Positions 7,278 through 55,467 of a DNA stretch of 55,467 nucleotides are shown here, one piece after another (the first letter of the stretch is position 1; each line of letters opens with the position of its first letter). The stretch is taken from assembly GCA_005772955.1 (NCBI GenBank), contig SXID01000084.1, positions 1 through 55,467 of the forward strand, written 5' to 3'. This DNA is from Planctomycetia bacterium. GTDB lineage: Bacteria > Planctomycetota > Planctomycetia > Gemmatales > Gemmataceae. The position numbers and the translations under genes are program-made. Below the pieces are notes generated by a model. That model made no database searches and had not been told where the DNA came from. It saw nothing but the letters and a program-made list of their open reading frames with translations.

Positions 7278-8317
7278 CACGAGCGTAACACGAAGACCAC
7301 CGACACCGCGTTGAACAGTGCGTGAACGAGTAGTGGCACCAGCAACCCGTTCGTGCGCACCGCGAGCCAAGCCAGCCCCAACCCCAGCACGAACAGCGGG
7401 ATCGGGTTCGGCCAAACGGAGTGCATGAGCGCGAAGAACGCGGCCGTCGCGTACACGGCCCGCGCACGTCGCGCCCCAGTGCGTGTGAACCGCCAGAGCA
7501 CACCGAGTCCTACGACGAGCACGCAAGCGAAGACCACCGGCTGCCAAGTCCCGCTAGTCGCGGTGAACAGTGTTGCCGCGGTCATCACGATCCACGGGCG
7601 GCAGGTCGTCACTGGTAACACACCCACGCCGGGCAGTTTCATTCGCCCAACGCACCACCACAGCAGCACGCCGCGGATGATGATCTCCTCGCGCAGCGGC
7701 GCGCCGATACACGCTTCCAGTGCGAGCAGAATCTGATCCCTCAGGGGCCGCCCGCCGAGTTTCGCGAGCGAGTGCGTTTCCGGCGGCACGTCGAGTTGTT
7801 GCGACACCACGTTCACGATTGCGTTCAGCAGCAACACGACCGGCGTGAGCACTGCCCACGCGAGCACCGCGAGCCCCACCTTTCCCGCGACGCTACCACT
7901 CGTGTTCGGCCGCCACTTCGGGTACAGCGAGTATCGCGTCAGCGCGAGTGCGCCGAGCGATATTGGCAGCGCGAGAATGCTCGCCCACAACATGCGCAGC
8001 GTGGCCGATTCCGCCTTGTGTTCGGGGTCGATTTCCGTCGCTTTCGCGTGCGGGAAATCGTCGCCATAGACGAGTTGATAGAAGCCACTCTCGTTGAGGA
8101 CTTCAAGCATCACGATTGGCACGATGAACGATACCACGAGGAACGCGCCCGTCACTCCGAACCCGTTCCATGGCACCGGAAGCGGCTTCCACTTGTGTAA
8201 GAACGGTTCGCCTTTCGGCCGCAGCGCCGTTGCGATCAGACCGGCCGGCAGCGCGACCGCCGCGACGAGCGCGATGGAGGTCACCATGCGCGCGACTTCT
8301 GACAGGTCAATGCTCAC
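7277..8317 (-). CDS. CPBP family intramembrane glutamic endopeptidase
   Basis: A 346-residue, strongly hydrophobic protein with about eight membrane segments. The protease motif EEIIIRG has the Glu pair at 210-211 and Arg at 215; the second motif ALMHSVWPNP has His299. These match the CAAX-protease/Rce1-like (ABI) family, which in bacteria cleave membrane proteins or serve in bacteriocin immunity. The GTG start at 8317 has GAAGGA 6-7 bases upstream. It lies between glycosyltransferase and trpC genes on the opposite strand, with no prenylated partner or bacteriocin gene in sight, so its substrate is unknown. Confidence 0.9.
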   Translation of the reverse strand: MSIDLSEVARMVTSIALVAAVALPAGLIATALRPKGEPFLHKWKPLPVPWNGFGVTGAFLVVSFIVPIVMLEVLNESGFYQLVYGDDFPHAKATEIDPEHKAESATLRMLWASILALPISLGALALTRYSLYPKWRPNTSGSVAGKVGLAVLAWAVLTPVVLLLNAIVNVVSQQLDVPPETHSLAKLGGRPLRDQILLALEACIGAPLREEIIIRGVLLWWCVGRMKLPGVGVLPVTTCRPWIVMTAATLFTATSGTWQPVVFACVLVVGLGVLWRFTRTGARRARAVYATAAFFALMHSVWPNPIPLFVLGLGLAWLAVRTNGLLVPLLVHALFNAVSVVFVLRS

Positions 8318-43950: not shown

Positions 43951-43993
43951 GTGTTTGGGTTTTAGCCCGCGGAGAGGGCTAAAACCCAAACAC
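43951..43993. terminator. Perfect 18-bp bidirectional hairpin between convergent genes
   Basis: GTGTTTGGGTTTTAGCCC at 43951-43968 is exactly complementary to 43976-43993 with a 7-base loop. A run of four T or A lies in each arm, suiting both directions. The minus-strand stop (43993-43995) begins on the last base of the right arm, and the plus-strand stop ends 6 bases before the left arm. Confidence 0.8.
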
Positions 43994-45156
43994 TATTTCT
44001 GCAGGATCGGGAGGTAGTTGTTGGGCAGTTGCAGCACGATGAGGCTCATGGCCGTGGCATAGGCGCTGCCGTGCCAGTGGTCGTTCCAGGTGCCGCCATT
44101 GGCGCGGGCCCGGCCGAGGAGTTCGTCGCGGATCGCCGGGAACCACGTGCGCCAGTAGTCGCCGCCAGCCGCCCACATCGCCAGGGCCGCATAGTATTGG
44201 CCATAGTAGTAGTGCGCCGGGGGCAACTCTCGCTGATTGAATTGGCGGTTCGGCATGAACTGTTGTAGGTAGCGTAACCCGCGCTCGGTGGCCTTGCTGT
44301 TCACTTCCTCGTCTTCGGGTACGCTGGCGCTATACAACCCGACGACCGCTGCGGCTGTGCGGGCGAACGCACTTCCTAGCCCCTGCCCGCCCTTGAGGTA
44401 GCTGAACCCACCGTCGGCCATTTGGCATTCGCGGATGTATTTCGCGCCCTTGCGGACGAACTCCTTGCGAACGAACACGCCCGCGTTACGCGCGGCTCGC
44501 AGCGCCATCATGAACGCGACAGTGACCGACACGTCGGCGTACGGCGCGTTTGGTTCGTATCGCCATCCACCCTCGTGGTTCTGTGCGGCGGTCCCGAACG
44601 TGGTCGCCTTTTCGAGTACCGCACGCACCCGCTTCTGCCGGATCGCCTCCGGCATCATGCCGCACACTTCGGCGAGGAACAGACTGGCGAACCCGTGGCT
44701 GTACATCGCGCTGGGCTGGGTGCCGAGGCGCCCGAACTGACCCTCGTTGGCAGTCAGGAAACCGGGGTTCGTGCCGGTCACTAGTCCGGTGATGTAATCG
44801 ACCACGCGGCTCACGTTCTTCCCGTACTTGCCACGGCCCGGTTGGTGCCCGGCGCCCAAGAGCGCCAGCCCGCCCAGGCCGGTGATGCCTGCGGTGGCGC
44901 CGCCGACTCGCTCGCCGAACGACCCATCGTTAGCCTGACTTAGCGCGAGCAGAGACAGACCGCGGTCGATGGCCGCTTGCGTGTCGTTTGTGATGAACTC
45001 AGCGCCTGTGTCCGACCGCGGCCCGCCGAGGCCGTCGGGCCGCGGCCCGCCGCCCGGTTGTGCGAACGCGGTGAGGTGGAGCGCGGCGACCGCCCCGCCC
45101 ACGGTCGTGGCCCGGAGGAAGTTGCGTCGCGACACGGATCGTAGAGGGTTACGCAT
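43993..45156 (-). CDS. Tat-exported alpha/alpha-toroid (prenyltransferase/squalene oxidase repeat) protein
   Basis: A 387-residue protein. ATG 45156 opens with MRNPLRSVSRRNFLRATTVG, a twin-arginine signal (SRRNFLR). The mature part contains the repeat motif of terpenoid cyclase-like toroids: LLALSQANDGSFG, NHEGGWRYEPNAPYADVSVT, ECQMADGGFSYLKG and the final GGTWNDHWHGSAYATAMSLI. The catalytic DXDD of squalene-hopene cyclase is not evident, so it is probably a binding or structural relative rather than a cyclase. It is the last gene of the envelope operon. Confidence 0.9.
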   Translation of the reverse strand: MRNPLRSVSRRNFLRATTVGGAVAALHLTAFAQPGGGPRPDGLGGPRSDTGAEFITNDTQAAIDRGLSLLALSQANDGSFGERVGGATAGITGLGGLALLGAGHQPGRGKYGKNVSRVVDYITGLVTGTNPGFLTANEGQFGRLGTQPSAMYSHGFASLFLAEVCGMMPEAIRQKRVRAVLEKATTFGTAAQNHEGGWRYEPNAPYADVSVTVAFMMALRAARNAGVFVRKEFVRKGAKYIRECQMADGGFSYLKGGQGLGSAFARTAAAVVGLYSASVPEDEEVNSKATERGLRYLQQFMPNRQFNQRELPPAHYYYGQYYAALAMWAAGGDYWRTWFPAIRDELLGRARANGGTWNDHWHGSAYATAMSLIVLQLPNNYLPILQK

Positions 45157-45248
45157 GTCGGGAACCTGCGGTGAGCGGACCGTCTGTGTTTCTTGTCTTG
45201 GTGGGACGGCCATTCTTGTCTGTGCCACGAAAAGAAATCAAAGCCTCG

Positions 45249-46106
45249 TCACTTCTTCTCGGGCTTCGTTCCCTTGTCCGAGAGCGACGAGTAGTAGAGC
45301 CGGAGCAGTTCCGCGTACTTCGGTGTGAACTCGTCCTTGTAGTACTGCGACATCTGCTGACGGATCTTGTACGGCAGGTGCCCCCACACGTCCTTCGCGA
45401 CGCTCTCCTCGAACGGCAGCGCCGCGTTGCCAATCCCGGCCTTGCCCATCGGGTTCCCGCCAGCGGTGCCCGCGGGGTCTGTCGGGTCTTTTGGTGTGCC
45501 GCTCTTCTTTGTTGGGTCGTTGTCGGGTTTGCTCGGTTCCTTCGCGTTGCCGTTGGGTTCCTTCTTGCTGTCGTTCATCGGATCGCCCATGCGCGGCTTG
45601 CGCTCTCCCATACCGCCCATCGGAGGCGGATCCCCCATCCCCATGCCCTTCGGCATCGGCATCATGTCCATGCCGTCCTTACCCATTGGCATTCCGTCCT
45701 TCTTCATCCCCGGGTCCATCATCGGGTCTTTCATGTCCTTCTTGTCGCCCATATCCTGCTTGTCCTTCTCCTTGTCCTTGTCGGGTTGCGGGGGCGGCGG
45801 GTTCTCTTGCTGGTTGATGAGCGCGTCGATGTCGGACAGAATCTTGCCCTGCGTCTTGCGCGTATCGGTGCCGGTGTCGGTCTTCGCGAGTTTGTCACCG
45901 ACCTCCTTCGAGTTGTCGATGATGCGCTTGACGGTGACGGCCGGGTCTTCGCCCTTCGCGGGTCGCTCGGCCTTCGGCACGGGGTCGCGGGTGCCGTCGG
46001 GGCGGATCTCGCGCGGCGGCGGCGCGACAGGCACCTCGGCCCGCGCCCGCGCATTCGGGAGTGACACCGCCGCAACAAACAGCACGACGAACGATACGCG
46101 GTTCAT
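45249..46106 (-). CDS. Secreted Met/Pro/Lys/Asp-rich low-complexity protein
   Basis: A 285-residue protein with signal peptide (1-23). A helical segment at about 55-100 is followed by low-complexity sequence; residues 119-177 hold 17 methionines mixed with Asp, Lys, Gly and Pro (for example DGMDMMPMPKGMGMG). The C-terminal ~55 residues, VAKDVWGHLPYKIRQQMSQYY and KYAELLRLYYSSL, look folded and may be a conserved interaction domain. The ATG overlaps the stop of the DUF4175-like gene by four bases (ATGA). The Met-rich part could bind Cu(I), which is speculation. Confidence 0.85.
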   Translation of the reverse strand: MNRVSFVVLFVAAVSLPNARARAEVPVAPPPREIRPDGTRDPVPKAERPAKGEDPAVTVKRIIDNSKEVGDKLAKTDTGTDTRKTQGKILSDIDALINQQENPPPPQPDKDKEKDKQDMGDKKDMKDPMMDPGMKKDGMPMGKDGMDMMPMPKGMGMGDPPPMGGMGERKPRMGDPMNDSKKEPNGNAKEPSKPDNDPTKKSGTPKDPTDPAGTAGGNPMGKAGIGNAALPFEESVAKDVWGHLPYKIRQQMSQYYKDEFTPKYAELLRLYYSSLSDKGTKPEKK

Positions 46107-49100
46107 GGCTTCTCCGGGGCCGGCGGCAAGTCCTTCGGCGCCTCGTTTGGCGTGTCCTGGGGCGGGAACAGTTTCGCCATCTGCTCGAACAGCTCGGCGA
46201 TCTCGCGTTGCGTCTGTTCCAACTCCTTGAGTTCTTCCTTCTCCGCGTCAGTCAGTTTATCCGCGTCAGGGTGATCCTTCGCAAACTGTGCCGTGCGGTC
46301 GTTGAGTTCCGCTTGCAGCGTGCGGAGGACCTTCAGTTGCGCGAGCGGCGGAACCGCGTCCTGATCGCCGCCCCCGTTGGGGTTCGGCAGTTTGTTCGGC
46401 GCCTTGGGCGGGTTCGCGGGATTGTCCTTCTTCGTTGGCTTCTCGTCCGGCTTGAGGGCATCGGCGAGTTGCTGCAGGCGCCGTAGCGCGAGTTCCATCG
46501 GCCGCAGCACCTTCCGGTCGCCGAGTGCTTCGAGATCCTCATCGTAGGCCGCGGTGAGGTCCGCGTCGTCACATCGGGTCTTGATCTTCGCGCGTGCCAG
46601 GTCGATCGCGTTCGCGGAGTCCGTGAGCAATCGCACGAAGACCGGGAACTGCGCGAACTCGTTCTCCGCGAGCTTGCGGACCTCGATCGCGATTTCCGTT
46701 TCGCGCACCGTATCGACGTCCGAATAGCTCGTGAGGAGGAGCTTGTCCCACCCCTTCTGCTTCGCGACCTCGCTGTGAATGCGGACCACCTCCGCGACCG
46801 CAGCCTTCTGCCGTTCGAGCAGCGCCTTCACCTGATCGGCGAGCTTGCGTCGCTTCTCATCGGAGAGTTGCCGACCGCCTTGCGCGGCTTCGGCGTCGAG
46901 CCGGTCGCGGGCGTTATCGAGTCGTTCCACCGCTTCGCGCTGGGCGCGCGCGTTCGGCTGGCCATTCTCCAGGTCGTCGCGTGCAGCGTCCATCTTGTCG
47001 AGTGCCGCGCGCAGGTCGTGTGCCGCATCGTCTACCTTGTCCGCGGTGAGCTTCTGGAGAAGTTCGCGCCCGCGTTCGATGAGTTTGTCCTGCTCCTGCC
47101 CTAGCACCTTGAGCGTTTCGGCACGCTGAACAGGGTCCGTGATGCGTGACGCGGCTTCGACCCGCTTGCGGAGACTATCCTGAGCAGCGGCGAGCGCGTC
47201 GAGTTGATCAGCAGCACGCTTCTGAATCTTCGGTTTCGCGAGTTCGGGCACCGCGTCCGTTTCCTTCTCGGTGAGCGCGTCGGCAAGCGCCTCAAGACGG
47301 GCGGCACTGGAACGAAGGAAGTTCGCTGCCACGCTCTGCCTGCTCTTGCGTAACTCATCGGCAGCATCGCGGAGTTCTTTGGGAAGCTCCTGGCCGCCAG
47401 CCGCGTCGATGCCCTTGCGAAGCGCTTTCGCTTCGGCCTCGGCCTTGTCCGCGGCGGCCTTCATGTCGGTGGCGGTTGCGGCGACCGCGTCGGCCTGCGC
47501 GTTCAGCGACGATTTCTCCACCGGGTTCTCGTTTAGGTCCGCTCGACGCTTCAGATCGGCTCCTTCCTTCTCCTTGATCGCGGCCTGCGCGCGAAGGACT
47601 TTGGCCTGCGTATCCTTCTCACTCGCGAGTCGCGCGGCGCGGGCGATCAGTTCGCGGGCCTGATCCGCGGATTGCTCGGCTCGGAGGCCGGCGCGGTCGA
47701 GTTCGCGCTGCTCGTCGTCGGTTGGCCTCACCGTGCCCGGTTTCACGCGATCCTTGAGCTGTTCATTGGCCACGAGCTGACGTTGGATGTTGTCTTTCTG
47801 AACACGAGCCTCGCCGCGAATCTCGCCAGCTCCGCCCCAGAGCGAGAGCAGTTCGAGTAGCGTGATCGCGGTGTCCTCGATGTTCTTCTGACTGCGCCCG
47901 GTCTTGCGTAGATAATTCACGAGTTCCTTCTCTTGGCCGGGCTTCGCTGGCTGCCACGCGAGCCGCATCGCGTCGCCAAGATTCTGCTCCGCGGTGCTGA
48001 GGTCGCGGTCGGCTGTGCGCCCGAGTTCCGCCGCGACGACTTCCACACGGTCGGTCGTGTTCGACTTGGGCAGCCCGTTGGCGCGGACCGTTGCGTGAAG
48101 CAAGTCGGCCTTCGCACGAAGACCCCGCGCCACGTCGGTGATCTTCCCAGTAATCTGCCGCTGACCTTGTTCCGCGCTGACAAGCCGGTCGCGGTCGTCC
48201 TGCGATAGCACTCCACCCGGCAGCGGCAATACCTCGGCCGTTTTCTGTCGCGCCTCTCGTTGTTGCGCGAGAATGCGACCCAGTTCGGGACGGATCGTTG
48301 CGAGCTCTTTCTGGAGCCACGCGTCAATCGCTTCCGGCGACGTGATGCGAATTTCGACTTCGCCGATACTCCGTCCAGGTCCCTTCAGGGGCGCGACATC
48401 ATCAAAGTCTTCGGCCGCGGCGCGAAGAATGAACAAGTCGCCCTCACGAAGAGGCGTGCCGTCGTCGCGAAGGAACGACGCGACCGGGACACTTGCGGAA
48501 ACGTCGATACTCCCCGTTGGTGGCGCAAGTGCGAACGCCGTTCCGCCGACCAATCCCGCGAAGGCCTGGACGGGCACGTTCTCGGCCTCGCTGAGCGGGC
48601 GAGTTCGCGTGCGCCCGGCTTGCCCAACGCGGTATTCGAGGTACAGCCTACGCGCTCCGTAAAGTGGGTCTAGCGCGCTGGCGTTCACGAAGACGGATGC
48701 AGTCGGTGTGAGGTACACCGGGTCGCGCCCCGCGAAGGGGCGGTGCAGCGTGACTTTCGGCACTGGGTCGGCGACGAGGTCGATCTTGATCGGACGAGCC
48801 CCGGTCAGGCCGGTGTCGTCAGTGAGTTTCAATGCGTAGGGGCCCGACAGCGGCGGAATGAACGTCGCGGAGATGCGGGTGCCGTCTTCCGAAATCGTCA
48901 GCGGGATGTCGACGGCGAACCCGTCGGCGAGTCCCTGCGCGGCGATCGCGGCGATCGGGTCGAGGTGCCCAAGGTGCGCGACCGGAGAGGCGTTCACGAC
49001 ATCGCTCCTGTCGCCAACGTAGGTCAGGACCGCTGCCGAAAGTCGCACGTCGGTCGCGGCCCGGAAATGAATCACGGTGCCTGTCGGGATCTCGATCGCG

Positions 49101-50128
49101 GATGCCCCCGGCGGGAGGTTGCCCGAGGGCAACTTCGTGTACGCTGGTGGCGTGATGTGAAACTGCGGCGACGCGCGGCCATCGAGCGGCACGAGGCGCG
49201 GCGGCGGGACGACCGTGACCGACTCCCAGTCGGTGAACGCATCATTAGAACCGACTCGCACCTCGAACGTACTCGACACGCGGGACGAGTCGAAGCGGGT
49301 CGTCACGACCGCTGCACCGGGGACTTGCGTGTCGTTGTTGAACGAGAGTGGGAACTGCTCCTCGAACCCGCTCCCATCCCTCATGCGAACGGTAACGGTC
49401 GCTGGACCGGCAAGTACGCCGCGGACCGCAAACTTCAATTCAAACGAGTCGCCTTTTGGGATGCGCGCGGGGAAAGTCCTCGGTGCGAGGAACTCAATGC
49501 GGGTCTTGGTCGGCCATGCGTGCGCGCCGAACGGATCCGCGAGTCGGACGAACGCGGTTGCGGCGCGGCCCGTGTTGAACAGCGCGAGCGGAATAGCGAT
49601 GGCAACTGCCGAGAGGCACAGCCAGACGTTCCGCCAGCAGCGCCCGGCCGGAATGATGTGGTCAAGCGGCAGCCGCCCGGCGCGTCGCTCAGCCACGCGC
49701 ACCGCGGACGCGGTAAGCCGGTTGGAGACCCCAGTCGGCCTCGGAGGTCGGTCTTCGTTCGCGGACTCTTCGCTGGTGCCGAGGAACGACACGGCCGACG
49801 CCAGAGAGTCGTTGAGTGTGGGGAAACGGTCTTCGAGTTCGAGCGCGATGGAGAGCGCGTCGGTGCGGTATCGCAGCGCGCGGCCAACACCGCGAACGCA
49901 CACAATGCCACCGGCTGCGAGGCACGTCAGGAGAAACATCGCGCGAACGAGTGGCGGCAGGTGGAGAGCAGCGTCGAGGAACCCCGCGAGCGTGGCGACA
50001 CCAACAATGGTGGCGACGAAAGCGAACGCACCGGACGCGAGCGCGACCCGCTTGCGTGTGCGGCCGAGGTCGGCGAGTTGGTTCGGGAGCGATTCACGCT
50101 CGGTCGGCGGGCGCAGAAGCAGTGCCAT
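46103..50128 (-). CDS. DUF4175-like giant membrane protein with coiled coils
   Basis: A 1341-residue protein. Two membrane helices lie at about 28-50 and 60-80, and a third at 167-184 (VWLCLSAVAIAIPLALF). Between about 190 and 590 the sequence is strand-rich with Ig-like or CARDB-like segments (FPARIPKGDSFELKFAVRG, APTITVRMRDG-type strands). From about 600 to 1200 it is highly charged and helical, a long coiled coil (for example ELRKSRQSVAANFLRSSAARLEAL), and it ends Pro-rich. It resembles the DUF4175 proteins found with BatA/VWA genes in planctomycetes and bacteroidetes. It should span the inner membrane with the coil outside. Confidence 0.85.
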   Translation of the reverse strand: MALLLRPPTERESLPNQLADLGRTRKRVALASGAFAFVATIVGVATLAGFLDAALHLPPLVRAMFLLTCLAAGGIVCVRGVGRALRYRTDALSIALELEDRFPTLNDSLASAVSFLGTSEESANEDRPPRPTGVSNRLTASAVRVAERRAGRLPLDHIIPAGRCWRNVWLCLSAVAIAIPLALFNTGRAATAFVRLADPFGAHAWPTKTRIEFLAPRTFPARIPKGDSFELKFAVRGVLAGPATVTVRMRDGSGFEEQFPLSFNNDTQVPGAAVVTTRFDSSRVSSTFEVRVGSNDAFTDWESVTVVPPPRLVPLDGRASPQFHITPPAYTKLPSGNLPPGASAIEIPTGTVIHFRAATDVRLSAAVLTYVGDRSDVVNASPVAHLGHLDPIAAIAAQGLADGFAVDIPLTISEDGTRISATFIPPLSGPYALKLTDDTGLTGARPIKIDLVADPVPKVTLHRPFAGRDPVYLTPTASVFVNASALDPLYGARRLYLEYRVGQAGRTRTRPLSEAENVPVQAFAGLVGGTAFALAPPTGSIDVSASVPVASFLRDDGTPLREGDLFILRAAAEDFDDVAPLKGPGRSIGEVEIRITSPEAIDAWLQKELATIRPELGRILAQQREARQKTAEVLPLPGGVLSQDDRDRLVSAEQGQRQITGKITDVARGLRAKADLLHATVRANGLPKSNTTDRVEVVAAELGRTADRDLSTAEQNLGDAMRLAWQPAKPGQEKELVNYLRKTGRSQKNIEDTAITLLELLSLWGGAGEIRGEARVQKDNIQRQLVANEQLKDRVKPGTVRPTDDEQRELDRAGLRAEQSADQARELIARAARLASEKDTQAKVLRAQAAIKEKEGADLKRRADLNENPVEKSSLNAQADAVAATATDMKAAADKAEAEAKALRKGIDAAGGQELPKELRDAADELRKSRQSVAANFLRSSAARLEALADALTEKETDAVPELAKPKIQKRAADQLDALAAAQDSLRKRVEAASRITDPVQRAETLKVLGQEQDKLIERGRELLQKLTADKVDDAAHDLRAALDKMDAARDDLENGQPNARAQREAVERLDNARDRLDAEAAQGGRQLSDEKRRKLADQVKALLERQKAAVAEVVRIHSEVAKQKGWDKLLLTSYSDVDTVRETEIAIEVRKLAENEFAQFPVFVRLLTDSANAIDLARAKIKTRCDDADLTAAYDEDLEALGDRKVLRPMELALRRLQQLADALKPDEKPTKKDNPANPPKAPNKLPNPNGGGDQDAVPPLAQLKVLRTLQAELNDRTAQFAKDHPDADKLTDAEKEELKELEQTQREIAELFEQMAKLFPPQDTPNEAPKDLPPAPEKP

Positions 50129-50154
50129 ACGGAACCTCTGAGCGAAGCTGACCC

Positions 50155-50185
50155 CTCACTCGGCCGCGCTTCGCGGCCAAGTGAG
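50155..50185. repeat. Hairpin between two genes of the envelope operon
   Basis: CTCACTCGGCCGCG at 50155-50168 pairs with CGCGGCCAAGTGAG at 50172-50185 apart from one C-A mismatch, with a three-base loop. It sits in the 89-base gap between the BatA/VWA gene and the DUF4175-like gene and could attenuate or protect the mRNA. Its TCACTTGGCCGCG arm also occurs in the direct repeat beside mug. Confidence 0.6.
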
Positions 50186-50217
50186 CGTCTTCTGCTTTCA
50201 CACTCCACAACCCACCA

Positions 50218-53200
50218 TCATAACAGTCGCTCACGCTTCCGCAAAAGCCACTCGGCCAGCAGAAGTGATAATAGCAATACATAGATGAACGGCTGGTTCC
50301 ACAGCGGCACCGGTGGGCACGGCTGGTTCAACGGCACTCGCTGAAGGTTCTTCAGGTCGTTGAGGACATCGGTCGCGTTCGCGAGCGTGTAGAACCCGCC
50401 GCCGGAGATGGTCGCGGACGCGACGAGGTCGGTACGGTTCAGTTCTGTTCGCTCGCGCTCGTCCATCGGCGGCAACACGCGTGCGTTTGCGAACGGCCGC
50501 GCGCCCTGCACTTCGGGATCGGTCAACTCGAACCGGTATTCGCCATCAGGGGCGCGGGCCAGAGTTGTCTCGAACAGCACCGTCGGGCCGGGCGTGCGGG
50601 TGAGCGTGATCGTGCTGGTTTCCGTCGCGCCGGGGCTGGGCGTACCGTCCGGCTTCAGCAGCGGCGAGCGTGTCATCGTCACGCGGACCGGCGCGACGCC
50701 CGCAGGTGCAGGTGACTCGATCGGGAACCGCACCTGCACGGTCACCTTCTCGTTACGGCGGAACTCGGTCTTGGGCACGATGCGCACTTCTGGCCTGCGA
50801 ACCCGCGAGCGGGAGAGAACCCGCATCGTCTGCATCCAGAATTTGTCGAAGTGGTCCTCGTCGTTGCGGTATCGCCATCGCCAGGTGTCGTCGAACCCGA
50901 AGAACATTACCGGTCCATTGCCGACGAACTGTTGCACCACGAGCGGGTGATTCTCGCCGGCAGCGCCGCCCTCGGCACGCACCGTGGGGTGGGTCGCGAG
51001 CACCCGCGTGAGCGGCTTCGGCCGGTAGCCCTTCGCGTACCAGAGCAGTTCCTGGAACTGGTTCCACACGCGGTTGGATTCGGCCTCGTCGGGCGAGAGC
51101 AGAAAGATCGGGTGCTGCTTACCGACTGGCGTCCACCGCGGGCGGAACCCTTCTGTAATCGGTTGCTCTTCGGTCGGGCGCGTCACCACCGGAAGATCGC
51201 TGGGAATCACCGGCAGTACTTCCGCGAGTGGCGTGTCCACGTAGGCGGCCGGAGTGCCGTGTTCGCCGCAGAGGAAGAGCAACCCGCCGCCTTTCTCCTT
51301 CACGAAATCGGCGAGGTCGCGCAGCGCGAGCGCCGATCGCGGCACCTGCTTCGGGTCCACGTCCCCGAGGACGACCACGTCGAAGTCGAACAGTTCCGCG
51401 CGCGTCGGGAAGTCGCCGCGGAACGCGGAGCGGTCGGTTTCCGCCCAGCCCTTCGAGGCGTCGAGCAGCACCACCTGGACCTCGACCGCCTTGCCGCCGA
51501 TGGACCTGTCCGACTCGCGTTCCAACATGACCTTCACGAACCGGAAGTCGTAGCGCGGGTAGCCTTCAACGTACAGGACGCGTATGCGGCGTGATTCGGT
51601 CACGAGAATCATGCGCTCGATCTCGTTGTTGCGCCGGTTGGTTTCGCCCGGCACCGTAGGCACGCTGAGGATGAACGTCTTCTCGCCGATCTCCATCGGA
51701 ACGTGTGTCACGGTTACGTCCACTGGGTTGCCATTCAGGTCTGGGGTGACGGTGACCTGTCCGCGGTCTTCGAGTTTGCCGTTCGCGAGCCGCTCCTTGA
51801 GGGATACCGTGACCGGATTGGCGGGCACGTCGCCTTTCGCGGTGAGCCGCGCCTTGAGGACGAGCTGGTCACCGCGACCGACCACGTCTTCCGCTTGCAG
51901 GTCGGTGAGTGCGAGGTCGGGGGTCTGCCACGGGTCGCCGGTGCCGACGAGGAACAGCGGGACGCCGTCGAGCGCTGCGGCGCGGGCCGCTTTGGGCAGA
52001 TCGTTGCCTGCGGTGGTGACGCCGTCGGTGAACATGATGATGGCGGAGAGCGTGCCACCGCGGAACTTCTTCAGCACGTCTTCGACGCCGTCGCCGAGGT
52101 GCGATCCGTCGCCAGTCGGTTCCAACTTCTTGAGTGCGTCGCGAGCGTCCGCGAGTTGGCTTTCATCCTCCACGGTGGCAACCGGGCGTACCTCGGCCTT
52201 TGCATCCACAGCGAAGATGTGAACTTTCACCTGCTTCTCGCGAAGCAGTTTGTCGAGCCAGTCGGCGTCTTTGCGTGTGAGGAGCATTTGCGCGAGCCTG
52301 AGCCGGTTCGCTTCAGAAAGGTCAGTGGTGCCCGCCAGTTCTTCCGCCTTCGCGCGCACGGCGGGGTCGCGCATCTCGTCCACCTTGGCCATGCTCGCGG
52401 AGGTGTCGAGGAGGATGACGACTTCGGGCCAGCCCTCGCGGTCGAATGCGAGCCGCAGTTGTGGGAGGAGCACGAACAGCGCGAGCAGGAAGACGGCACA
52501 CCGGAGCAGCGCGGGCACAACGAGGCGACCGAACCCGCCGGCCGCCCGGCGTTCGAGCCGGTACACGCCGAGCGTGAGCACGAGGCAGCCGAATGCAAGC
52601 GTACCGACGACGCGCCGGTCGGTGACCGCGTTCTTGAAGAAGGCGGTGGCGCCTTCGAGTCGCCACCGGGTGCCCTCGCCCGGGCCGGCGGTGGGCATGC
52701 CGGCGGTGGACTCGACGCTCGCACGCGGGCCATGCGGGAGGAACCCAAGCGGGTTCCCGGTGCGTTCGGCATGGAACACCGCGAACAGCACCGCGGCGCC
52801 GAGCGCGAGCGGGACGAACGCCGCCGCGAGTGTGATCAGTCGCACGAGGGGCGAGCGTGCGGTCGCGCTGCCTCCGCCGCCGGTGCGCGATGGTCCGAGA
52901 CGCCATGCGAGGATCAGTTCCGTTACGAGCAGGAGCACCGCGAACAGCACCGCTGCGCGTGCGATCCAGGGGCCGTGTGGACGCGGGGCCGTGGTGATGA
53001 CCGCGCCACTCTCGCTGGTCGGTTTCACCTCGGTCGGGTCGGGGACGAACTGCACGCCGCTTAGAGACTTGAACTCGCGCGGGTCGATGCGCGTGAGGTC
53101 CGATTCCGTTGGTGCACCGACGACGATCTCGGGCACGTTCACCGCGAACGCGCGGTCGCGTGCTCCGTTGAGGCCCATTCGGTACAGGCCGCTCGCGGTG

Positions 53201-55230
53201 GTGTTCGTGAATCGGGCGACACCGGCTTCATCTTGTAGCACGAGCGGGACAGCGGCGATGAGTCCATCGGGACCGTTGATCCCGGCGATCAGCCCGGCGG
53301 AAGATGGCGGGAAGAACTCCTCGATCGTTTCGCTGGTGCGGAGCGTGTGCCGGTCCGGATTCGCGACGGAGTACTTGAGGAACTCGTGCCAGAACACGAG
53401 GTAGGTTTGCATCGTCGCCCAGTCGGTCCAGTCGCGGTTGAACGTGCTGGTGAAGACGTACACACGCCCGCGGTGTTTGGTCCACTCTACGATCGCCGGG
53501 TCGGGCTTCGTGGCGGAGGGCGTTGCCTTAGGCATCGGGTTCGAGACCGGGCGTGAGAATGTCAGTAGCCGATGGGCGCGGCCGTCTGCTGGCGAGTCGA
53601 GCTTCACATAAGAACGGAATGGTTCGTTGATCAGTTCAGTCCGCAGTTTGGGGGAACTGAACAACACGAGTGGCGGCCGGCTGTACGCATCCTCTTCCGC
53701 CGCGAGCCGGAAGCCGGGGTCATCAGGTCCGGTACCGGTGATGACATCACCGAGAGCGCCGGGCAGCACGCCCGCTCCTTCGCGGTAGAGTTCGGCGTTG
53801 TATTTCGCGAGGCTTGCGGACGATGAGGAGTTCGGCCCCAAGCCGATGACGACGGTTCCGCCGCGCCGGAGTACCGCGTCAAGTTTCGCGGCCAGGGCGG
53901 CGGTCGGGTTCGGCACGTCGCAGAGGAACACGCAATCGACGCCGGTGATGTCGTATGCGGGGTCGAGGAATTCGGCGGGGGTGACCGGCTCGCGTGGTCG
54001 GTTAGGCGTGTCGGTGAGCTTGGCGCCGGGCGGGAACAGCGCGCGGTGGAGGTGCGTGGCGGCCCGGCGGTTCGCGTTGGGGTCGGCGTTACCGTTAACG
54101 AGAACCGCGTGCAGTCCATCGCGCACCTCGACAGCGAGCGCGCGGCTGTCGTCGGCGACCAGGTCGTCGCTGTCCACGAGTTTCGCTTGAAGGATGTGAA
54201 CGCCGCGTTCACGGAACCGCTGTTGGTGGTCGAGGTCGAACTTCACCTGCTGGCGGCCGCCGGGGGGGATCGCCTCGACGGGTTTCTGCTCGACTGAGGT
54301 GAGGGTGTCACCCCCGGCGGACGGTCGTCCCAGTAGCAACTCGACACGCACGCCCTTGCGCTCGCCGCGCCCGAGGTTGGCGACGACAACTGTGACCGTG
54401 ACCGGTTGATCGACGATCGGCATCGGGTCAGCGAGGGTGATCTCGGCGATGGCGAGGTTTTCGGCGTCGTGGCCCGCGGTGTCCACGATAGCCACATCGG
54501 AACGGGACACGATGCGCTGCCAGAGTTCTGCGGTGCTGTTCTCGGCGCGCGGGACCGCGTTCACCCACGACGATTTTTGCAGGTCGGTGAAGAACGTGAG
54601 TTGGCGCCGCGGGTAGGCGCGGGGGGATCGCGCGAGGACATCGGCGACAGTCGCGAGTGTGGTGGTGTGGTCGGCGGTACTGTGTGTTGGTTTCAGCTTC
54701 CGCAGTTCGGCCACGACCTTGTCGGGATCGTTCGAGGGGCCCGGCACAAGCGGTTGAATCGCGGTCGTGAGGACCAGGACGGTGTAGCCATCGCCGGGGT
54801 TGCCGGAGCGGACGAGGTTCTCGGCCTGGGTGATCGCGCGCTGGAACCGGGTCTGATCGCCGTCGGCGCGTGCGGTCATGCTCAGAGAGGCATCGAGGAC
54901 GAGGACGTGGTGGGTGCGTGGGACGTTCGCGATCGTCTCCGAAGTGCCCGGTCTGATCAGTTGCCAGAGATCTTCGGCCCACGGTGTTGTGGCGATCATC
55001 GCGAAGGGCAAAAGGATCAGCGCTAGTGTGCGGAGCGCGAGTAGCACCCACTGGTCGATGCGGCGCTTGTGCCGGCGCTCCGCGACCAGGAGAAACCTGA
55101 TCGCGGCGAAGGGGACAATCTGATATCGTTTTCGAAAGAGGAGGTGTACGACGAGCGGCACGCCGACTGCGACGCCAGCGGCACCGGCAGCCATGAGTGG
55201 TGTGAACACGGCGAACAGGGGGTGCATCAT
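50218..55230 (-). CDS. BatA-type/VWA double-length fusion membrane protein
   Basis: A 1670-residue protein; ATG 55230 is chosen (a second ATG follows) because MMHPLFAVFTPLMAAG is the normal start of BatA-type proteins. First half: two membrane helices (8-32, 62-82), a VWA-like domain with DASLSM at 113-118, a CARDB-like region around 265-350, and a Rossmann/GATase1-like region around 375-470. Four membrane helices follow (758-778, 797-820, 873-892, 905-925). Second half: another VWA domain with DTSASM at 942-947, FTDGV and then a GATase1-like domain with MFFGFDDTWRWR, ending in a final helix near 1645-1663. These are usually two genes; here they are one uninterrupted frame. It heads the operon with the DUF4175-like gene. 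Confidence 0.88.
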   Translation of the reverse strand: MMHPLFAVFTPLMAAGAAGVAVGVPLVVHLLFRKRYQIVPFAAIRFLLVAERRHKRRIDQWVLLALRTLALILLPFAMIATTPWAEDLWQLIRPGTSETIANVPRTHHVLVLDASLSMTARADGDQTRFQRAITQAENLVRSGNPGDGYTVLVLTTAIQPLVPGPSNDPDKVVAELRKLKPTHSTADHTTTLATVADVLARSPRAYPRRQLTFFTDLQKSSWVNAVPRAENSTAELWQRIVSRSDVAIVDTAGHDAENLAIAEITLADPMPIVDQPVTVTVVVANLGRGERKGVRVELLLGRPSAGGDTLTSVEQKPVEAIPPGGRQQVKFDLDHQQRFRERGVHILQAKLVDSDDLVADDSRALAVEVRDGLHAVLVNGNADPNANRRAATHLHRALFPPGAKLTDTPNRPREPVTPAEFLDPAYDITGVDCVFLCDVPNPTAALAAKLDAVLRRGGTVVIGLGPNSSSSASLAKYNAELYREGAGVLPGALGDVITGTGPDDPGFRLAAEEDAYSRPPLVLFSSPKLRTELINEPFRSYVKLDSPADGRAHRLLTFSRPVSNPMPKATPSATKPDPAIVEWTKHRGRVYVFTSTFNRDWTDWATMQTYLVFWHEFLKYSVANPDRHTLRTSETIEEFFPPSSAGLIAGINGPDGLIAAVPLVLQDEAGVARFTNTTASGLYRMGLNGARDRAFAVNVPEIVVGAPTESDLTRIDPREFKSLSGVQFVPDPTEVKPTSESGAVITTAPRPHGPWIARAAVLFAVLLLVTELILAWRLGPSRTGGGGSATARSPLVRLITLAAAFVPLALGAAVLFAVFHAERTGNPLGFLPHGPRASVESTAGMPTAGPGEGTRWRLEGATAFFKNAVTDRRVVGTLAFGCLVLTLGVYRLERRAAGGFGRLVVPALLRCAVFLLALFVLLPQLRLAFDREGWPEVVILLDTSASMAKVDEMRDPAVRAKAEELAGTTDLSEANRLRLAQMLLTRKDADWLDKLLREKQVKVHIFAVDAKAEVRPVATVEDESQLADARDALKKLEPTGDGSHLGDGVEDVLKKFRGGTLSAIIMFTDGVTTAGNDLPKAARAAALDGVPLFLVGTGDPWQTPDLALTDLQAEDVVGRGDQLVLKARLTAKGDVPANPVTVSLKERLANGKLEDRGQVTVTPDLNGNPVDVTVTHVPMEIGEKTFILSVPTVPGETNRRNNEIERMILVTESRRIRVLYVEGYPRYDFRFVKVMLERESDRSIGGKAVEVQVVLLDASKGWAETDRSAFRGDFPTRAELFDFDVVVLGDVDPKQVPRSALALRDLADFVKEKGGGLLFLCGEHGTPAAYVDTPLAEVLPVIPSDLPVVTRPTEEQPITEGFRPRWTPVGKQHPIFLLSPDEAESNRVWNQFQELLWYAKGYRPKPLTRVLATHPTVRAEGGAAGENHPLVVQQFVGNGPVMFFGFDDTWRWRYRNDEDHFDKFWMQTMRVLSRSRVRRPEVRIVPKTEFRRNEKVTVQVRFPIESPAPAGVAPVRVTMTRSPLLKPDGTPSPGATETSTITLTRTPGPTVLFETTLARAPDGEYRFELTDPEVQGARPFANARVLPPMDERERTELNRTDLVASATISGGGFYTLANATDVLNDLKNLQRVPLNQPCPPVPLWNQPFIYVLLLSLLLAEWLLRKRERLL

Positions 55231-55425: not shown

Positions 55426-55467
55426 CGGGCTGTAGCTCAGCTTGGCTAGAGCGCTTGGTTCGGGACC
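55426..55467 (+). tRNA. tRNA-Pro (anticodon CGG), cut by the window end
   Basis: The acceptor 5' strand CGGGCTG is followed by TA, a D-arm GCTC...GAGC, G26, anticodon stem CTTGG and loop TTCGGGA, giving anticodon CGG. The C1 start is typical of bacterial proline tRNAs. The 3' half, including the T-arm, lies outside. Confidence 0.88.

Follow-up and report, generated by a model that had tools for sequence, protein, structure and literature searches.

Among the closest described systems to the planctomycete locus analysed here are the Bat operons (BatA/BatB, including Borrelia BB0173 and the Leptospira Bat proteins), with which it shares a BatA N-terminal double-TM domain, VWA domains with a MIDAS motif, a three-TM layout in each half of its main protein and, in relatives, MoxR and DUF58 neighbours. 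Fusions of bat genes are known, among them batB-batC in L. biflexa, and deletion of the full bat operon in that species gave no phenotype (PMC3557215); a role in the envelope therefore does not hold for all such systems. Likened to the present locus by description rather than by sequence, cmdA-D of Rhizobium leguminosarum (RL3499-RL3502) is a conserved MoxR-containing operon that PMC5700661 cites as affecting the envelope and cell shape, with no fusion described there. VWA proteins are the typical partners with which MoxR ATPases remodel or metallate their targets, as in NorQD (PMC13036017); NorQ/NorD and RavA/ViaA each pair a MoxR AAA+ ATPase with a VWA protein, with metal insertion in some cases. 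Our locus differs from these pairs in placing its VWA domains on a membrane protein, where they are probably periplasmic. In NorQ/NorD and RavA/ViaA the VWA partner is soluble and cytoplasmic.

The window is the whole stretch of DNA analysed, an entire contig (C53; 55,467 bases) and one of 278 in a draft genome. Four successive minus-strand genes occupy its end, as the sequence-only reading had laid out, headed by a gene that joins a BatA/VWA protein to a VWA/GATase protein. Compared with Bat operons, only this locus has GATase1-like and CARDB regions, a second half (VWA/GATase) on one chain with the first, an added junction helix, and DUF4175-like and toroid partners, whilst compared with the L. 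biflexa batB-batC fusion it has other partners, family-wide fixation and the added helix. Gene order and domain make-up are the same in split orthologous operons of other Planctomycetia (L086, L091 and L100) and in a split paralogous operon of the same genome (C160, L061), but these have two genes, no junction helix and an adjacent MoxR-DUF58 pair. No published report of a BatA/VWA plus VWA/GATase fusion was found in the literature searched, which took in few subscription journals. Bat/cmd systems are widespread, and a lineage-fixed fusion would name which two of their subunits pair and predicts a 1:1 stoichiometry. The permanent joining of the two proteins, with one more membrane-crossing segment at the join, suggests that they act as a constant pair in the envelope.

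One frame for two VWA proteins

The fusion gene (50218..55230, minus strand, as are all coding features of the window given below) has 1670 codons, and its residues are numbered here from the ATG at 55227. Its first half opens with a BatA N-terminal double-TM domain (54997..55203, residues 9-77) that scores above the curated cut-offs of both PF07584 (43.1 bits against 25.9; E 5.7e-11) and TIGR02226 (two_anch, NCBIfam; 48.7 against 23.05; E 6.8e-13). VWA domain 1 follows (54583..54906, residues 108-215; PF13519, E 1.3e-18 for the protein), keeping a MIDAS-type DASLS, so that a D-x-S-x-S motif stands after the TM pair as in the BatA/aerotolerance N-terminal family. VWA domain 2 (51925..52422, residues 936-1101; PF00092, E 2e-10) keeps a MIDAS-type DTSAS. 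The VWA domains of both halves exceed curated cut-offs and retain the D-x-S-x-S motif together with the later Asp, and profiles of each half match the solved BatB-type VWA chains 3ibs and 4jdu.

Profiles of both halves also match the GATase1-like chains 2gk3, 3soz and 3rht. GATase1-like region 1 spans approximately 53428..54105 (residues ~375-600) and region 2 spans 50818..51594 (residues ~1212-1470), with a 2gk3 profile match at residues 1272-1351 (E 2e-6); the first-half profile additionally matches CARDB-like beta domains. The two VWA and two GATase1-like regions read from the sequence at the outset are thus borne out, the former by cut-offs and the latter through profile matches. The catalytic nucleophile-elbow Cys of class I glutamine amidotransferases was not conserved among 12 relatives in the second half (C, S, A or another residue) and was absent from the first, and both regions are therefore probably non-enzymatic. 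Aligned with one another, the halves show homology across 593 columns (hhalign 99.7%, E 5.3e-27), so the fusion unites two distant, ancient paralogues. AlphaFold models of each half, built from two-row alignments, reached mean pLDDT values of 38 and 35, too low for a fold search.

Distribution of fused and split forms

The survey searched 397 genomes from the class, together with 392 sampled from the phylum, using a profile built on 12 fused proteins. A frame crossing the junction was present in 73 of the 95 genomes of the window's family, which by gene content and genome sizes is probably Gemmataceae: full-length and stop-free in 59, interrupted by a single TAG distant from the junction in two, and cut by contig ends in 12 others. 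The remaining family genomes comprised four with fragments that left the junction uncovered, 16 with weaker matches only, of the strength that the split paralogous operon gives (three of these were inspected, and each has a separate gene for the second half), and two with frame breaks at the junction (G026 and G089). The internal TAG codons (G028 and G084) were rejected as junction stops on account of their positions, and G026 and G089 were rejected as natural split genes, their breaks resembling indels in a fused gene. In G026 (L051, ~7440-7460) one base appears to have been lost inside the extra helix and the DUF4175-like frame is also broken; in G089 (L052, ~8014-8043) a deletion at the junction takes out the extra helix.

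Outside the family, no stop-free frame over both halves was seen in ~650 other phylum genomes, among the matches listed (~150 rows). The 20 long frames opened there as candidate further fusions were all rejected, each proving to be adjacent or overlapping split genes, and a rare independent fusion elsewhere in the phylum may yet exist. A missed stop or frameshift, joining two genes during assembly, would be a natural suspicion for one contig of a 278-contig draft, the more so as two relatives do show junction frame breaks, but we give it a negligible chance: the same open junction recurs in 73 independent family genomes, several of them complete and with the frame intact, the added helix is conserved, and linker dN lies well below dS in genus pairs, indicating constraint. 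The fusion is real. The sequence-only reading, which regarded the two proteins as usually separate genes, had named such an artefact, or an equal frequency of split and fused forms, as grounds for abandoning its claim; the survey found neither, with the forms sorted by lineage and unmixed.

In a concatenated tree of 53 rows, obtained by a short search without bootstrap, the 25 fused proteins formed one clade (SH-aLRT 100) adjoining the split orthologues of the class, and the split paralogue from the window's own genome was placed elsewhere. Given this single clade, one fusion event within the family's lineage is likely and is the simplest reading. A single-protein query of contigs returned one relative, G024. 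The nearest relative, L065 (CAMDQN010000019.1), is 85% identical and groups with the window's genus.

Junction helix and predicted membrane topology

Between the last helix of the first half (TM3; 52909..52965, residues 755-773) and the TM pair opening the second (TM5 and TM6; 52468..52611, residues 873-891 and 902-920) lies an additional hydrophobic helix (TM4; 52774..52830, residues 800-818). It was found in 25 of 25 fused proteins, with Kyte-Doolittle values of 1.76-2.94, versus none of 28 split pairs. Nearly all split pairs have a first protein that ends no more than ~6 residues past the last of its TM helices and a second protein that begins ~16-42 residues ahead of its own first helix, with start codons over-extended in a few.

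Loop charges fit a consistent orientation. The TM1-TM2 loop carries 8-11 K/R versus 1-4 D/E, fitting a cytoplasmic position, the TM3-TM4 loop is mostly positive and likewise fits the inside, and the TM4-TM5 loop is neutral to acidic and fits the outside. Read from hydropathy and charges alone, the chain would have its N-terminus and VWA1 outside, the TM5-TM6 loop inside, VWA2 outside and its C-terminus inside. Consistent with this orientation for each half, BB0173, the BatA-type protein studied in Borrelia, crosses the membrane with three TM helices and has its VWA domain in the periplasm (PMC5700661). If the first ancestral protein ended inside and the second began outside, joining them in frame would take an odd number of additional helices, and the junction has gained one. 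From the added helix follows a topology for each half that experiments can check.

Whether the join matters to function can be read in several ways. The fusion may be neutral, the stop codon between two co-translated neighbours having been lost, so that the product works like the split pair and the helix is merely tolerated. Many genomes already have the split genes abutting or overlapping (gaps of -4 to ~100 nt, some in frame), and bat gene fusions have arisen elsewhere too (PMC3557215); the single origin, the retention of the fusion in almost every family genome with the operon and the loss of the helix in just one broken copy tell against neutrality, which we consider possible but doubtful. 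Synthesis of one long chain that is later cleaved in the TM3-TM4 loop, leaving the cell with two separate proteins, is distinctly improbable: in its favour, the loop is short, Gly/Pro/Arg-rich and poorly conserved, but a conserved cleavage motif was not seen in it.

We favour, with reasonable but not high confidence, a third reading, in which the gene encodes a covalent subunit pair of Bat/cmd type, joined through a topology-adapter helix into an obligatory 1:1 scaffold heterodimer for the envelope and assembled by MoxR/DUF58. By a Bat/cmd-type system we mean a MoxR AAA+ ATPase, a DUF58 VWA protein and membrane VWA proteins, and the fusion gene would supply a covalently joined pair of its inner-membrane subunits. 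Both VWA/GATase1-like parts would lie outside the inner membrane, the extra helix would be the adapter that made fusion possible, and the halves would form an obligatory 1:1 heterodimer serving as a scaffold that bears two MIDAS sites but has no enzymatic activity. Together with the DUF4175-like protein and the two exported partners described below, this scaffold may support envelope integrity, and MoxR and DUF58, encoded beside it ancestrally and at another locus in this genus, may assemble or metallate it. We infer the 1:1 pairing from the fusion, and the envelope role of the operon is proposed by comparison with Bat/cmd systems.

Operon partners and the MoxR-DUF58 pair

Downstream of the fusion, all frames lie where they had been read. 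The 1341-aa membrane/coiled-coil protein (46103..50128) has orthologues in the same place, but its earlier label of DUF4175-like is weak, the window's protein giving no DUF4175 match in Pfam and the family appearing below the curated cut-off in relatives (6.8e-5 for a homologue and 0.0011 for the protein of the paralogous operon). The secreted protein that follows (285 aa, 45249..46106) overlaps the preceding gene by ATGA as described, and the Met-richness attributed to it (7% Met, 17 in 60 residues) is lineage-specific: the window's genus shares it with a small number of others, G094 having 11%, and homologues elsewhere have 1-4%. The last gene (43993..45228) encodes a 411-aa alpha/alpha-toroid protein (PF13243) whose proposed Tat export agrees with its TAT_signal match and RR motif. 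It is a toroid-fold match only; as a squalene/oxidosqualene cyclase it scores 37.5 against the TIGR01787 cut-off of 322.7 and has no DxDD. Among its homologues, most members of the fused family have a twin-arginine signal, and many other families of the class have an apparently ordinary signal peptide.

Across the class, split orthologues share the order propeller (PQQ/TPR)-MoxR-DUF58-BatA/VWA-VWA/GATase-DUF4175-like-secreted-toroid-NPCBM protein, and in early-branching fused relatives the propeller, MoxR and DUF58 genes likewise come first, with MoxR-DUF58 directly before the BatA-type gene. The pair is kept ahead of the fusion in five genomes (G058, G081, G074, G043 and G037) and, with extra genes intervening, in G063. 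From this comparison, propeller-MoxR-DUF58 is the ancestral head of the operon. In a few genera the fusion stands apart from the downstream genes or is inverted relative to them.

Directly ahead of the fusion in the window, and in the clade to which its genus belongs, MoxR and DUF58 are absent. Only ~240 bases lie upstream of the fusion gene, because the window is the whole contig, and they include the first 42 nt of a divergent tRNA-Pro(CGG) (55426..55467, plus strand) truncated by the contig end. This fragment, which the sequence-only reading had recognised as a divergent tRNA, is identical to the start of the divergent tRNA upstream of the same gene in a genus-mate (L048, G011), and two additional genus-mates also carry a divergent tRNA. 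ARAGORN detected no tRNA in the window, because the contig ends inside the gene.

The earlier statement that no MoxR or DUF58 gene precedes the fusion therefore holds locally, where the tRNA stands, but not genome-wide. The propeller, MoxR and DUF58 genes lie together at a remote locus in G010 and G011 (in the latter at 3.73 Mb, versus 2.89 Mb for the fusion), and in the window's genome the relocated MoxR comes in two pieces, one closing C180 (L169 13603-14169; 93-94% identity across 172 aa) and the other opening C51 (L168 42-530; 85-93% identity across 162 aa), with DUF58 after it. With the pair found elsewhere in the genus, the ancestral operon was broken between DUF58 and the fusion, nothing being missing. 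In a DUF58 tree the relocated copies group with the operon type; the larger group is strong (99/94) and the fork joining these copies to early fused members is weak (90/52). The locus shows an operon divided, in certain lineages alone, into a chaperone portion and a membrane portion. More tentatively, one fusion may have locked two ancient paralogous Bat-type subunits as a seven-helix pseudo-heterodimer through a topology-correcting helix, after which the locked complex tolerated its separation from the MoxR/DUF58 genes; the fusion would then be direct evidence that the partners which other planctomycetes encode separately associate 1:1.

The pieces on C180 and C51, broken by contig ends, correspond to the N-terminal and C-terminal portions of MoxR (349 aa) in G010 and G011, and a propeller gene precedes the relocated MoxR. 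On three further contigs, C160 (L061), C234 (L062) and C127 (L063), the same genome has BatA-type operons that include DUF58 and either MoxR or part of it. The first of these is a complete split counterpart of the fused locus, comprising DUF58, BatA/VWA (748 aa), VWA (862 aa) and DUF4175-like genes.
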